Part shown: positions 5,573-58,640 of the stretch, piece after piece
How the letters are laid out: every line of letters starts with the position of its first letter
How positions within the stretch are numbered: the first letter of the stretch is position 1
Assembly (NCBI GenBank): GCA_020912385.1
Contig: CP087213.1
Coordinates: 868,001 to 932,000, forward strand
Source: Neofusicoccum parvum
Taxonomy: Eukaryota > Ascomycota > Dothideomycetes > Botryosphaeriales > Botryosphaeriaceae
Length of the DNA stretch: 64,000 nucleotides
Direction: 5' to 3'
The notes under the pieces: generated by a model
Database searches by the model: none
What the model saw: only the letters and a program-made list of their open reading frames with translations
Told to the model about the DNA's origin: nothing
Position numbers and translations under genes: made by a program

Positions 5573-5604
5573 GGTCCGTGTCCCCTCCGCTCCGCACATA
5601 TAAA
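5573..5604 (+). promoter_or_regulatory. TATA box and upstream element of U2-like copy 1
   Basis: TATAAA lies at 5599-5604, 47 nt upstream of the inferred RNA 5' end. A GGTCCGTG plus C/T-rich element starts at 5573, 26 nt before the TATA box. Copy 3 has GGTCTGTG at almost the same spacing (25 nt). The C/T-rich segment between TATA and RNA start is also shared among the copies. The role is inferred from this conservation. Confidence 0.7.
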
Positions 5605-5645
5605 CCCGCCTCCTCCTCGCCCCAACACCTCCCTTTCTTCTTCAG

Positions 5646-5831
5646 CTCCCTCTCTTTGCCTTTTGGCTTAGATCAAGTGCAGTAGCCGTTCTTCTTAGTT
5701 TAATCTCTAGGACGTGCCCACGGGTACATCGAGATTAACCCAGTTTTTGGAACATCGGGTTGGAGGTCTATGAGCACAGCTTACATCTCCGACCACAGTG
5801 TCGCCAGTATTGCACTGTCTCTGGCTGACGC
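5646..5831 (+). ncRNA. U2: U2 spliceosomal snRNA-like gene, copy 1 (branch-site variant GCAGUA)
   Basis: The sequence follows U2 from end to end. It has the 5' segment TCTCTTTGCCTTTTGGC, the U2/U6 pairing segment GCTTAGATCA, and the branch-site segment, here GTGCAGTA where canonical U2 has GTGTAGTA. Stem IIa has loop TTTAATCT; stem IIb follows. A TTAATCTC/GAGATTAA helix can form the alternative stem IIc. The Sm site is AGTTTTTGG, stem III pairs GGTTGGAG with CTCCGACC, and stem-loop IV is CCAG-TATTGCACTGTCT-CTGG. The 5' end is placed by analogy with yeast U2 and the 3' end just past stem IV; both are good to a few bases. Known role: branch-site recognition in the spliceosome. Whether this variant is active is not known; the intact structure favours a real RNA gene over a pseudogene. 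Confidence 0.9.
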
Positions 5832-5859
5832 GAACTCCGCATCCTCTTTTCGTCGTATC

Positions 5860-5876
5860 CTCAGCCACGCGCTGAG
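5860..5876 (+). other. Conserved 3' hairpin downstream of U2-like copy 1
   Basis: A perfect 6-bp stem CTCAGC/GCTGAG with a 5-nt loop lies 31 nt past stem-loop IV. It is preceded by CTTTTCGT. Equivalent hairpins with different but fully paired stems follow copies 2 and 3. By analogy with yeast U2, such a hairpin may direct RNase III-type 3' end processing; that is inference. Confidence 0.65.
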
Positions 5877-6975
5877 ATGTGAGGAAGAGTTGAGTGACTT
5901 CGGCCTGCCTCCTCGCTGGCCTACCTGCCTGGTCGCCACTGACATGTGTTGTCGTCGCTGACAGTCTGCCTGCTCCGCCATTGTGCGCTTCATCTCCGCA
6001 TTGCTATGCCTCGACTTGCCCTTCCACGACCTGCGCGCTCCCATGGCCTACCTACGTACCCGACCGACCCCGTCTACGAGCCGGCCGTCACCAAGGAAGA
6101 ACATTCTTCTCCCCATTTCTTGCAAACGCGCGAGCCTCGCACCAGGCCCGGGCCCGCCCAGTTGTGGTTCCGAATGCACCACACATGGGCTTTGCTGTGG
6201 TGAAGCATCGCGAACCTGGCGGCGTGGTGTTGTGCTTCGACGCCGGGTGACCCAACACTGACCGAGGGCGCGCCGGCGTCTACCGCCTCAGGCCCAGCCG
6301 CCCGCGCGCTTTATCCTTCGAGCAACTCTCTGCAATCTGTGCCGTCGTCATTGAGGAGCTGCGGCGGTGTTGTGTTGCGTTTCGTTGCGCTACGTCGTCG
6401 CGCCCGCTGTTTGGACGGCGCAGCGCTACGACCAGGCGTCGCAAGGCCGCTCGCTGTCGCAGGGGCGGGGTAGGTCCCGCTCGCAATTCTCTAATACTAC
6501 CTGCGAGCCATTGTTTCCCTTGTGAGCGGTGATGGGTGTTGGCGGTGGCTCGACAACTACCAGCACCACATCCGCCAGCAGACTGGTTGCCGCTACTTCC
6601 ACAATTCGCACATTCAGGAATACCTGCACTTCTAGAAACCGGCCGAGCATACTAGCCATGCATTTTCTCTCACTAAACTGCACGCGTTCGCACGTGTCTG
6701 TCACATTTGTGGCTGCCAAAATAATGTGTCTACGTGATAGAAAGCGTGATCCACAAAACGCCTTACAATGCCCGCTTCCCATGCCCTTGTATGTACGCCA
6801 AAATGCCACGACTTTTTGCAGCAAGGAGGTAAAAAGCAATGCACCAGAACTCCGCCGACCTCTACTCTCCGATCCGAGATACTCAGACCCAGATCATTTC
6901 TCCCGTCTCAGGCTAGAACGTCACCCACCATCTAACCTCCACAACCGCCCCATCCACCGTCTCGATCTAAGTCCA
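5877..6975. other. Intergenic region between U2-like copy 1 and sld2 3' end
   Basis: No gene is recognised. An open frame on the + strand that starts near 6529 runs on as antisense through the whole sld2 gene; it has no family motif and mirrors GC-rich coding sequence. The final part holds the 3' untranslated region of sld2. Confidence 0.45.
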
Positions 6976-37822: not shown

Positions 37823-39743
37823 CGCGCGGTCAAAACGTCACGGCCGTGCATTTGCCATGCATGCAGGACAGATGGGTCCTCCTTCCTTTCGGCGAAAGTG
37901 GGGACGTGTGGCAGACATGCCCCTGGCACCGTGCTTTCCTCGTCCCCTCTCGACTCGTGGCGTCGCCGGGACACCGCGCCGGAAGCGGTGGATCAGTGCG
38001 TGGGATAGAGTGGGGACCGCTCCGCCGCGAGGGAAAAGAAAGGGGTCCGTGTGGAGGCGCGAGGGAGCGCAGACCGCTCCCCGTCCGTCCGTCTGTCCGT
38101 CTGCCGCGCACGGCCGTTCCGCGAGCGAATGGGTGGGAGGAGAGGTGGGTTATGTCATGGCGATGTAACCGTGTCTGCAGATCACAACGTCGTTTGCTGG
38201 CGACCGGTCAGTTGGGCGGGAAAGAGTTTTTCTTCCTTCCTGAGATCCTCGACAGGGGCCGTGATGAGGAGTTTTTCTGGAAGGGTGGGGGAGATTGCAC
38301 GGCGGCGTTGCAGGAGGCGCGGATGAGGGGAATTAATGTGCTGACGTGCTCTGCTCGCCGTGCCAGATACACAGTGCTGGAGTGCGCGTGCGAGGCGAGG
38401 TGGTCCGGACGGCGTTCGACAGGGGTCTGTGTTTTGTGCTCGATGCGGAAGGGCGGTGCAGAAGGCGGAAGTGAGAGCCGCGGATACACCCGGGAACGAG
38501 TGGGACGGCCCGCGTGTAGCGCGCTTGCTGGTGTACGCGTTGGGTAAGTAGAGATAAGTGACTTAGCGGCGTTTATGCGTCAATGCACTATCCTCTAGCT
38601 GCATCTTGCTGGTCCGGCAGGGTTCCTGTCTTCGCAGAACCCCATTCACTCCGCCTCTGCTCACATATGTGTCTACTCCGTTCGTCGCGTCGGAGGCTGG
38701 AGGCTCAGGCGTTATGAGGGTAGTTCCGCTCAAATGACCTCTCCAGGAAAATGCCCGGAGACACCATCTGTTGCTCACGACTCGCGACACGCCGGAGTAG
38801 CTCCAGGATGGTACTGCTCTTACTGTGTGCGGGGATCATGCTGCGAAGTAGAGCGCGCGCCGGAAGCTCCTGGCGAGTAGGGATTTGAGCTATTCGCATT
38901 GAGAAGACCGCCGACGCTGCACAACATCTCCCAAGTCCGGATGAATGTCCCAAATCTTCATTTGACGAACCCCCGATTCTTGCAGTGCTTCGAAAAGAAT
39001 GTCGTAGATGATTTGAGCTGGATTTGCCGCGCCGCCCGGCTGCATCCTGCACGCTCAAGGGCAAATCACGAGGGATGGGCGGCTGTGTGCGCGTTTAGGG
39101 TAGCGCTAGTGGAAGATACTGTTGTCAGGAACGCCGCGGAGCTGGTCGCGGTGGTGGAGGTGGCGCGCAGGGCGGCCGGCGTCGCGGAGTCATGACCGTC
39201 GCAAGCGCAGCAGGTCTGGGGCCAACTAGTGCCGCACATCGCGGGCTGCTGCGTCGGAAGATTGGATTGAGACGAAGAAATTGAGACCGGTAGCCCAAGG
39301 TGTGGAGCAGTCTGCGGCGAAGAATGGCGCAGTGAGCGGGCGGCGGTGCAGGTCTGGCTCAGGGCTGGCTCCGCCGCCACCGCTGCGCGTGTTGCAACAC
39401 CAAACGAGGCATCGCGAGATGGAGTTGCACATATGTGGCGGCACAGAGTCTAGCTCATAGTATCGTGAAGCTTAGCACCCGCAAGAAGAGCACCAGTGCT
39501 TCTGCGCGCTGCTCTTGAAGATCCGGAAGAAAGGACAGGAACTGGGGCGCGACACTGTGGTGGCGTCCAAATAGCAGCGCCGCTGATGTGAGTGGGCGGC
39601 TACTGCAACACCATGGCGCCGCTTTGAAGGCATGATCAAGACATGTAAGCACAAGTGATAACAGATGTCAATCAGGATCAGCCAGCGCGCCCCAACAGTA
39701 CCAGCCAAAGACCAGGCAGGCTAAGCTAATCTCCTTCCTCTTG

Positions 39744-39762
39744 TTCCCAGTCATGCTGGGAA
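39744..39762 (-). other. Conserved 3' hairpin downstream of U2-like copy 2
   Basis: On the minus strand a perfect 7-bp stem TTCCCAG/CTGGGAA with a 5-nt loop lies 36 nt past stem-loop IV, preceded by CTTTTTCGTTTTGC. It matches the hairpins of copies 1 and 3 in place and shape but not in stem sequence. Confidence 0.65.
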
Positions 39763-39795
39763 GCAAAACGAAAAAGACTCAGTGAGAAGATGTTC

Positions 39796-39977
39796 GCGTC
39801 AGCCAGAAACAGTGCAATACTGGCGACACCGTGATCAGCGACATGAACGGAGTTCAGCGGCCGCCGACCGGGTTCCAAAAACTGGTTTAATCACTTTGTA
39901 CCCGTGGGCACGTCCTAGCGATTAAACTAAGAAGAACAGCTACTTCACTTGATCTTAGCCAAAAAAGGCAGAGAGAG
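39796..39977 (-). ncRNA. U2: U2 spliceosomal snRNA-like gene, copy 2 (branch-site variant GAAGUA)
   Basis: On the minus strand this follows U2 throughout. The 5' hairpin is GCC-TTTTTT-GGC, two T longer in the loop than in the other copies. The U2/U6 segment is GCTAAGATCA. The branch-site segment is GTGAAGTA instead of GTGTAGTA. Stem IIa has loop TTTAATCG and stem IIb is GTGCC/GGTAC. The alternative stem IIc pairs TTTAATCGC with GTGATTAAA, keeping a base pair where copy 1 differs. The Sm site is AGTTTTTGG. Stem III pairs GGTCGGCG with CGCTGATC, different from copy 1 but still paired. Stem-loop IV is CCAG-TATTGCACTGTTT-CTGG. The ends are inferred by analogy. The function of the variant is unknown. 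Confidence 0.88.
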
Positions 39978-40017
39978 CTGAAGAAGAAAAGAGGAGCTGG
40001 GGGCGAAGGGAGGGCGG

Positions 40018-40023
40018 TTTATA
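40018..40023 (-). promoter_or_regulatory. TATA box of U2-like copy 2
   Basis: TATAAA on the minus strand, 46 nt upstream of the inferred RNA start. The segment between them is almost identical to that of copy 3. Confidence 0.75.
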
Positions 40024-41019
40024 TAGGTGGCCGAGGGGGGTTTCGGATACGGTTGTGCCGGGCCCGGGTTGTTTTCTGGGGCAAACACGCAGGTAGCTGG
40101 CGTGTGTGACACCATGTGCACATATGGTTTGCTGATGTGACAGCCTGGGCTCGTGATACAGCTGGTAGAACACCGGCTTGGTGCTTAGAGGGTGCCTTTT
40201 CCGGTCCGCAACCACGTCACCTCCAGTATTTACACATTTACGGGTTGCTAAACAACCCAAACTTCCCAGGTAGCTGTGCATGGAAAGGCAGGCCGTCGAA
40301 CAGGACAATCCGGCATTGGAAATGTTGGGCTCTCTGCGGCTCTGAGCGTGATTGCGTACCGCTGTCTGTTTGTTTACCGATTCTGGTCCCAACACCAATA
40401 TGAGAAGATCGGATATCTTCTCCGTGTTAATGATCATCCGATCGTCCAGGGGAGTCTGTGTTTCATGGGGTTCTACAAGTCCGTAGCTCCAAAACACCTC
40501 CAGAGGTGGCTGGAACCAACGTAGCCGCTGACACTGGTAAGTTTTGGGGCGGATTGGACCCTGACCTCCAGATGTGCTAGGCTATCAAGTATGATGGAGT
40601 TGGGTAAACGAAATAGATGCAGTCTTCCATGGGCATAAGAACTCTTGAGGACAGCCGCTCACGACTTTTCCCATCCCAACTTCGCAGCAGTGAGACTTCT
40701 TGAGCCAAGTCCTGTCCCAGCATGCATCAGCAGCTTGATCAGCTTTTTGTATCGCGTCTTTAGAGAACAATTCAAGTGGTTATGAGTACGTTGGTCTTCT
40801 TCGTTTCGGCTATTGGACCATTGCAAAGTTGACTGACCTTGAATCCCCTTAGCCCGCCTGGGCCGTTCACTAAATCCTAGTCGTCTAAAATCTATACAAA
40901 ATGTATCGGTGTCTCTACGTTGAGTGCAGTTTCGCACGCGAGTTTGCAAGCGCGGCCTCCCCTGCGCAATTGTCAGCGCGATACTGACCTTCACGGTAGC
41001 CAGAAGAGACTCAAACTCT
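40024..41019. other. Gene-poor intergenic region, second part
   Basis: No gene, repeat or RNA can be supported in this 1-kb stretch upstream of U2-like copy 2. Confidence 0.45.
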
Positions 41020-57301: not shown

Positions 57302-57332
57302 GGTCTGTGCCCTCCTCCACAGGGTTTATAAA
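57302..57332 (+). promoter_or_regulatory. TATA box and upstream element of U2-like copy 3
   Basis: TATAAA at 57327-57332 is 47 nt before the inferred RNA start, the same spacing as copy 1. GGTCTGTG starts at 57302, 25 nt before TATA. Confidence 0.7.
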
Positions 57333-57373
57333 CCGCCCTCCCCTTCGCCCCCAGCTCCTCTTTTCTTCTTCAG

Positions 57374-57557
57374 CTCTCTCTCTTTGCCTTTTGGCTCAGA
57401 TCAAGTGCAGTAACTGTTCTTCTTAGTTTAATCTCTAGGACGTGCCTACGGGTACATCGGGATTAAACCAGTTTTTGGAATCAGATTGGGGGTCTATGAG
57501 CACCGCTTACACCTCCGATCACGGTGTCGCCAGTATTGCACTGTCTCTGGCTGACGC
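57374..57557 (+). ncRNA. U2: U2 spliceosomal snRNA-like gene, copy 3 (branch-site variant GCAGUA)
   Basis: It follows U2 through its length: 5' segment CTCTCTTTGCCTTTTGGC, U2/U6 segment GCTCAGATCA, and branch-site segment GTGCAGTA (canonical GTGTAGTA). Stem IIa has loop TTTAATCT. Stem IIb is closed by a C(TACG)G tetraloop, a very stable type. The alternative stem IIc is TTTAATCTC/GGGATTAAA. The Sm site is AGTTTTTGG. Stem III is GATTGGGGGT/ACCTCCGATC, longer than in copy 1 and fully paired through compensating changes. Stem-loop IV is the same as in copy 1. The ends are inferred. Copies 1 and 3 share the C at the second position of the recognition sequence; copy 2 has A there. Confidence 0.9.
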
Positions 57558-57574
57558 GACCTTTTTCGTTGATT

Positions 57575-57593
57575 GCTTCAGCATGCCTGAAGC
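57575..57593 (+). other. Conserved 3' hairpin downstream of U2-like copy 3
   Basis: A perfect 7-bp stem GCTTCAG/CTGAAGC with loop CATGC lies 20 nt past stem-loop IV, preceded by CTTTTTCGTTG. The loop CATGC resembles CATGA in copy 2. Confidence 0.65.
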
Positions 57594-58640
57594 TTCGAGG
57601 AAGAAGTCTTCTCTCTTGAACAGTGGTGCTTGCTTCGCCGCCAGGTAGCTTGACCTCTCCACCCGCTTACTCGCCAGGTACTTGGCGTTGTCGTCGTGCG
57701 TCACAATAGCTGAGCAGTGGTGTTGAACTGTTGTGATGCTCTCGCGCTGCACCAAAGCCGCGGCGGTGGTACCGTCGATGGCAGAGCAACGCACCCTGCA
57801 CGCAGCTGCCACTGGATTTGCCAGGCTGGAGCATATGCCGGCGGCCAGCCGACTCGCGCTGGCGCCGCCAACGAGCAGACATTGCAAGCTGCGATGAACT
57901 CGGACATGGTGCTTTGACACTACGCCCAACTCGCATCACTGACGGCACCCACGCAGTAAAGACGCCAGCGAGCGTTACTCCCACTTTGCCGCGATCCGTA
58001 CTTGGATGATGGATCAGGTAGGCCCATGGATAGCGCTGCAAAAGCCGGCCCATCATTGTCTTGGAGAGATTCGTCCTCACATATGGCCATCTCTACCATG
58101 GTTCGCCTGATAAGTCGTCAGATAGACGGCTGGTGTTGAGCTTCTCGCAGGAGTGATGGTGTGTGCCTGTTATTCCATGTGAGCCACGGTGCAGCGCGTG
58201 GTCTTTGGGCGACGGTGCGCGGTCCAGGACCCAGATTTGCGACCAATGTCAAGATAGCTCTCCCATCGATCGACGAAGTGAAGCTCGTGCTTGGACAGAG
58301 CCATCTTGGCGACCTTGACGAAGGGGGCTGATCCTCAATCTGCTGTTGCAGGTCACGAAGTGACACCCGGCGGCGGCGTTGTTTGGCGGCACACAGTGGT
58401 TTGCGCCCGTCGCCTCTCACATCCTACCCGGGTCTCAGTGTCGTCATCGCCGCCGTCATGCCAACGCGAAGCTTCGTCGTCAATTTTGGGCCATTCCAAT
58501 GACAGTCCAAGCCTGGCTGAGACTGCGACGGTCCCGATTCCGGGTCTACCACCAGCTGTGGAGCCACCACCGCCTCTGCATTCCTGACCCGATCACGTTC
58601 TCCTACCCACCACTGTTGCCCTTACGTACACATCATCGGC
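57594..58640. other. Intergenic region, no gene recognised
   Basis: 1-kb stretch between U2-like copy 3 and the 3' end of the SDR gene. Nothing supportable is seen in it. Confidence 0.45.

Follow-up and report, generated by a model that had tools for sequence, protein, structure and literature searches.

The window, a stretch of 64,000 nucleotides of Neofusicoccum parvum (C8:868001-932000, in a genome of 44 Mb on 18 contigs), harbors three U2 snRNA genes, each spanning the full Rfam model (RF00004, 1-192; gathering score 46). Within the window, no Rfam family besides U2 exceeds its own gathering score. Each gene is accompanied by a TATA-like element and a 3' box (Table 1); the box of copy 2 is a looser form, matched by the loose pattern and missed by the stricter one.

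Table 1. Features of the three U2 snRNA genes, in window positions
Feature	Position	Strand	Basis
Variant U2 snRNA gene, copy 1	5646..5839	+	RF00004, 118.5 bits, full length; sequence
Copy 1 branch-recognition hexamer GCAGTA	5679..5684	+	altered base 5680; sequence
Copy 1 TATA-like element CATATAAACCC	5597..5607	+	sequence; upstream-region comparison
Copy 1 3' box TTTCGTCG - hairpin - GAGGAAG	5848..5887	+	genome-wide 3' box search, C8:873848-873887
Variant U2 snRNA gene, copy 2	39788..39981	-	RF00004, 119.0 bits, full length; sequence
Copy 2 branch-recognition hexamer GAAGTA	39941..39946	-	altered base 39945; sequence
Copy 2 TATA-like element CTATATAAACC	40016..40026	-	sequence; upstream-region comparison
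Copy 2 3' box TTTTTCGTTTTG - hairpin - GAGGAAG	39734..39775	-	sequence; loose pattern
Variant U2 snRNA gene, copy 3	57374..57565	+	RF00004, 123.6 bits, full length; sequence
Copy 3 branch-recognition hexamer GCAGTA	57407..57412	+	altered base 57408; sequence
Copy 3 TATA-like element TTTATAAACC	57325..57334	+	sequence; upstream-region comparison
Copy 3 3' box TTTCGTTG - hairpin - GAGGAAG	57564..57603	+	genome-wide 3' box search, C8:925564-925603

The recognition region reads AGATCAAGTG-CAGTA-G in copy 1, AGATCAAGTG-AAGTA-G in copy 2 and AGATCAAGTG-CAGTA-A in copy 3, which corresponds to GCAGUA followed by G, GAAGUA followed by G and GCAGUA followed by A in the respective RNAs. Following the numbering of the canonical gene L001, the second base of the hexamer is position 35, occupied by C, A and C in the three copies, and the base 3' of the hexamer is position 40, altered to G, G and A. 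We take positions 35 (vertebrate 34) and 40 to be those of the yeast numbering. In addition, copy 1 is altered at position 42, from U to C. None of the three copies keeps GUAGUA, and as they lack GUAGUA followed by U, they are U2 paralogues rather than canonical U2. The 5' half of U2, including the U6-pairing AGATCA, is retained intact in all three, so that the copies look, from their sequence, built for splicing.

The sequence-only reading had already located the altered base at the second position of GUAGUA in all three genes and found the U2/U6 pairing bases intact, both of which are borne out by the sequence. The base identities that it gave are correct, but its positions for copies 1 and 3, 5670-5678 and 57399-57406, lie 8-9 bases early and span the adjacent AGATCAAGT and GATCAAGT instead of the hexamers.

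A U2 family across the genome

Rfam search of the genome revealed at least 37 U2 loci on 10 of the 18 contigs, every one above the cut-off of 46 bits, a lower bound given that the best 46 of 464 candidates were scored. A signature of stem IV, with 45 matches against none in the reversed control, recovered 36 of these loci and added nine, bringing the U2-like loci to at least 46; L026, which has an insertion at the signature site, is the one that escapes it. Three of the 37 matches, L001, L002 and L003, are canonical U2 genes scoring 149-155 bits, and the remaining 34 copies score 58-124 bits. The copies are clustered, with 14 of the 37 inside C3:2.63-2.94 Mb and three inside 52 kb of the window.

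It had been claimed that all U2-like copies are changed in the recognition sequence, which applies inside the window (three of three) but not to the genome, where 17 of the 37 matches retain GUAGUA. The hexamer is followed by U in five matches, namely L001, L002, L003 and the divergent L026 and L034, the last of which was scored by eye owing to a two-base deletion that shifts the register of the alignment. The canonical copies that the earlier reading proposed to look for are thus present elsewhere in the genome, and the pseudouridine site has not been abandoned by it. Among the non-canonical recognition types, the commonest (9 of 37) keeps GUAGUA and is altered within positions 26-45 at position 40 alone. 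At position 35, U is found in 18 matches, C in nine, A in nine and G in one. L034 (C5:3040056-3040248), which carries GUAGUA-U, is two bases shorter in the interval that separates the U6-pairing region from the hexamer, and nine other copies have one extra base there.

The RNA body is conserved among the copies. All 37 matches carry the Sm core TTTTTGG unchanged. In the alignment of all 37 (A1), 93.4% of the stem cells are paired, compared to 84.5% in shuffles that ignore the relatedness of the copies and to 35-43% in slid controls that allow for it, on a structure that was drawn on L001 following that of Rfam and thus favours structure there. Stem pairs altered on both sides amount to 18 of 37, against a shuffled mean of 12.6, a number reached by one of 500 shuffles, and the covariation score of 0.325, against 0.171 in the shuffles, is equalled by none of 500.

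The gene unit is conserved as well. By loose patterns applied without a shuffled control, a TATA-like element is found in 34 of the 37 matches and a 3' box in 36; the former pattern is absent from L031, L035 and the canonical L002, the element of which reads differently, and the latter from L034. The hairpin of the box has at least seven pairs in 25 of the 36 boxes, compared to 6% of shuffled boxes; a threshold of five pairs would be weak, since 41% of shuffled boxes reach it. Genome-wide, the pattern TTTCGTYG - hairpin - GAGGAAG has 36 exact matches versus two in the reversed control, adjoining 17 U2-like loci, five U1 matches, one U4 match and 13 other sites, which means that U1 and U4 genes are flanked by the same 3' box as the U2 genes. 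For the majority of pairs, the copies resemble each other up to about the promoter and 3' box and no further, which applies even to the near-identical L032 and L033, located in unrelated flanks; a few pairs, such as L005/L007, align beyond these borders. The exceptions to this conservation include L031 and L035, from which promoter and 5' end are missing, and L036 and L037, in which much of the recognition consensus is gone. Altogether, most U2 copies look, judging from these elements, like intact small-RNA transcription units, and the majority of the genes seem to be genuine and under constraint.

The nine loci added by the stem-IV signature are more heterogeneous. Searched against RF00004, one lies above the cut-off, four lie below it and four are unmatched at E up to 0.01. 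L059, L060, L064 and L066 retain the TATA-like element, the Sm site, the 3' stems of U2 and the 3' box, but large parts of their 5' half are missing or substituted. In L062, the locus above the cut-off, the TATA-like element is weaker and the recognition region is altered; several elements of L061 are degraded, and L063, L065 and L067 are without a clear promoter. Of the 13 unassigned 3' box matches, 12 were inspected, in ten stretches, for which Rfam returned nothing but one weak microRNA match below the cut-off. One of them, L072 (C3:2916830-2918060), contains three tandem mini RNAs, each carrying a 3' box and a hairpin whose TTGCAC loop resembles that of U2; their 5' parts differ, and the Sm site is clear in two of the three. 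L071 (C3:2619366-2619903) is a U1-like RNA with a TATA-like element, an Sm-like site, a 3' box and a different 5' arm. L074, L075 and L076 are longer, related-looking stretches that end in the same 3' box and are unmatched in Rfam at E up to 0.1.

The other spliceosomal snRNAs are represented by at least three U6, eight U1 (none above cut-off), one U5 and one U4 matches, lower bounds from the best 41-47 candidates scored for each. An expansion of U2 alone is therefore rejected, as U1 is also multiple, though U2 is far more so. One of the U6 genes, L040 (C2:2956570-2956668), has an insert of about 56 bases that resembles a spliceosomal intron (GTTCGT ... TACTGAC ... TAG), and L039 (C5:766338-766444) is a divergent U6 copy with an altered 5' stem and an intact ACAGAGA. 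Among the U1 matches, ACTTACC at the 5' end is kept in L041-L044 and L046, and altered in L045, L047 and L048.

Variable positions in U2 and the branch sites of the host introns

The branch-recognition hexamer of U2 is generally regarded as nearly fixed in eukaryotes, so that variation in this normally almost invariant stretch is unexpected. We counted changes as parsimonious minima on a tree of 35 copies, built without L031 and L035 and with the recognition columns excluded; the counts also omit L034, L036 and L037, which are difficult to align in the recognition region. Position 35 has changed 10 times and position 40 seven times, compared to 16 changes for the remaining 21 sites of block 26-48 combined. 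Positions 26-34 and 36-38 have 0 or 1 change each, and position 39 has three. A Poisson estimate for any of the 23 sites hitting 10 changes at the block average is 6e-5. Beyond the block, positions 24, 25, 51 and 61 have 8, 6, 6 and 6 changes, respectively, and position 35 is the maximum among the counted positions 20-61. These results agree with the previous view that change is focused on one base in a manner unlike random decay. That the second base is the sole one hit, however, does not hold, in light of the almost equal variation at position 40 and the changes at positions 24 and 25. Resolution of the tree is poor, good support being limited to 10 of its 32 inner branches. Moreover, some recognition types occur in separate clades and some nearly identical genes (L032 and L033) have unrelated surroundings, both of which suggest gene conversion; by transferring recognition types from copy to copy, this process would raise the change counts, which are therefore indicative.

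Pairing inside the branch-interacting stem-loop was considered as the cause of C35. The combinations of positions 35 and 43 are U-G in 17 matches, A-G in nine, C-G in eight and others in three of the 37. As position 43 stays G throughout U35, C35 and A35, this cause is rejected, and pairing with position 43 is not what drives position 35.

In yeast, there is a genetic link between the two positions 35 and 40. According to parts of PMC1276797, which cites Yang 2005, yeast Pus7 makes the pseudouridine at position 35 of U2, and the loss of Pus7 and a change of U40 each have no phenotype alone, whereas the two combined cause a growth defect. Sections of PMC7960923 add that deletion of Pus7 by itself lowers splicing and growth in certain conditions. 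The two positions linked in yeast are the same two that vary here. Moreover, PMC7960923 gives UNUAR as the Pus7 motif, from which it follows that the UGUAG context is lost from the window copies, as previously proposed.

As described in PMC7960923, the partner of the U2 pseudouridine (vertebrate 34, yeast 35) is the intron base adjacent to the branch adenosine. We predicted introns without the use of branch signals in 270,964 bases, which yielded 61 gene models and 88 introns, 50 of which were retained on the basis of their splice sites. In these introns, CTGAC was counted 20 times over the last part (1750 bases) versus once over the part before it (1639 bases); the corresponding numbers are 0 versus 2 for CTAAC, 3 versus 0 for CTCAC and 3 versus 1 for CTTAC. 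A genome-wide pattern with fixed GTAAGT and CAG gave observed/control counts, the control being the reversed pattern, of 997/174 for CTGAC, 626/166 for CTAAC, 240/150 for CTCAC and 209/203 for CTTAC, in addition to 144/141 for CATTC, the letters of CTTAC reversed; these counts may score one donor repeatedly where several CAG fit, with the further caveat that GTAAG and CTTAC are mutual reverse complements. The branch-site counts indicate that the base beside the branch adenosine is mostly G, then A, and rarely C or T.

Hence C35 would form a Watson-Crick pair with the commonest branch site, CTGAC, and U35 a wobble. By contrast, the A35 copies (9 of 37) have few fitting branch sites, as CTTAC barely exceeds the controls, and the idea that every variant is matched to its own class of branch site is not borne out for A35. 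Of 57 CTTAC sites, 28, 14, 7 and 8 lie at distances of 6-10, 11-15, 16-20 and 21-26 from the 3' splice site, a skew towards this site to which we give no weight, as truncated rows and longer alternatives are excluded from the tally and short distances are thereby favoured. The scarcity of CTTAC is not peculiar to this genome, since it is also among the rare types in Fusarium, the introns of which have CTRAY in 91% of cases according to parts of PMC5677156. Upstream of CTGAC in the intron-like matches, there is no T enrichment facing position 39 and a mild C excess facing position 40; changes at position 40 are thus not obviously tuned to the introns.

Possible functions of the variant U2 genes

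Most likely, branch pairing is free to vary among the U2 paralogues, or its variation is selected. To the proposal that the family yields alternative U2 snRNPs beside canonical U2, we assign about an even chance. The window genes are members of a large paralogue family alongside three canonical U2 genes that probably handle most introns, and most of the variants, judging from the Sm site and the gene unit, probably produce Sm-bound U2-like snRNPs. Their recognition sequence is nearly constant save at two edges, position 35, predicted to face the intron base adjoining the branch adenosine, and position 40, outside the hexamer. We infer that the variants are expressed and assembled into snRNPs with an effect on splicing, probably a shift in the preference for branch sites or in the strictness of their recognition.

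Another explanation, possible though in our view doubtful, is tolerated variation, in which the copies are expressed and their structure is under purifying selection, with positions 35 and 40 permissive and the genes redundant and devoid of new specificity. The small number of partner branch sites for A35 makes mere tolerance a strong rival, and the lack of a phenotype of the yeast U40 change alone (in the relevant part of PMC1276797), the occurrence of all four bases at position 35 and the commonest non-canonical type, in which position 40 alone is altered, point in the same direction. However, the promoter, Sm site and 3' box are kept in most of the 34 extra copies, which would be odd for purely redundant genes. 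It is unlikely that the copies are U2-derived Sm RNAs with other jobs, in which differing 5' heads would be mounted on the 3' half and gene unit of U2 as a common chassis; such a role would suit L059, L060, L064, L066 and similarly L062, as well as the tandem mini RNAs of L072, but the three window copies retain the 5' half with its U6-pairing region. Decay of duplicated copies into pseudogenes is highly improbable as a general account. L031 and L035 (2 of 37) and some of the nine extra loci, with L063, L065 and L067 short of a clear promoter and L061 degraded, may be such cases. For most copies, the pseudogene reading is contradicted by conservation, namely the covarying stems, the invariant Sm core and the promoter and 3' box elements, which most copies possess, among them the three of the window; in addition, changes within 26-48 focus on positions 35 and 40 rather than spread as in decay.

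Compared to canonical U2 (RF00004), the window copies are alike in the full-length match, the stems, the Sm site, the U6-pairing region and loop IV, but differ in GUAGUA, which is usually fixed in canonical U2, and in the next base; moreover, at least 46 U2-like loci reside in this one fungal genome. The Podospora anserina genome has 14 snRNA genes in total, as stated in part of PMC2441463. The six U2 genes of Drosophila, among the animal snRNA isoforms, likewise represent several differing U2 genes per genome; however, the Drosophila paralogues have four variable positions according to passages of PMC4291461, whereas here dozens of copies differ widely, the recognition sequence included. The excerpted literature on U2 variants, snRNA paralogues, ascomycete snRNA genes and branch sites describes no fungal U2 family of such kind.

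The U12 snRNA of the minor spliceosome, another RNA that reads the branch site, differs from the window copies in that Rfam assigns the latter to U2. No U12 match above the gathering score was found within the window, and a minor-spliceosome origin of the copies is rejected. The branch pairing of U12 is treated in part of PMC7960923.

A natural repertoire of U2 snRNPs, in which the U35, C35, A35 and G35 variants read differing branch sites and the related RNAs with new 5' heads hit other targets, would be comparable to tRNA isoacceptors; we advance it more tentatively still than tolerated variation. An orthogonal U2-branch site system was reportedly engineered in yeast by Smith, Konarska and Query in 2009. 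In both systems, normal U2 coexists with a U2 whose recognition sequence is altered; the yeast system is engineered, whereas the fungal family is natural and comprises many variants. This genome combines three normal U2 genes with no fewer than 34 additional Rfam-level copies, and the variation of their recognition region falls mainly on two sites with a genetic interaction in yeast. It provides a natural setting in which to test how freely branch-site pairing and its pseudouridine can vary, and whether one spliceosome can employ several U2 RNAs of differing specificity simultaneously.
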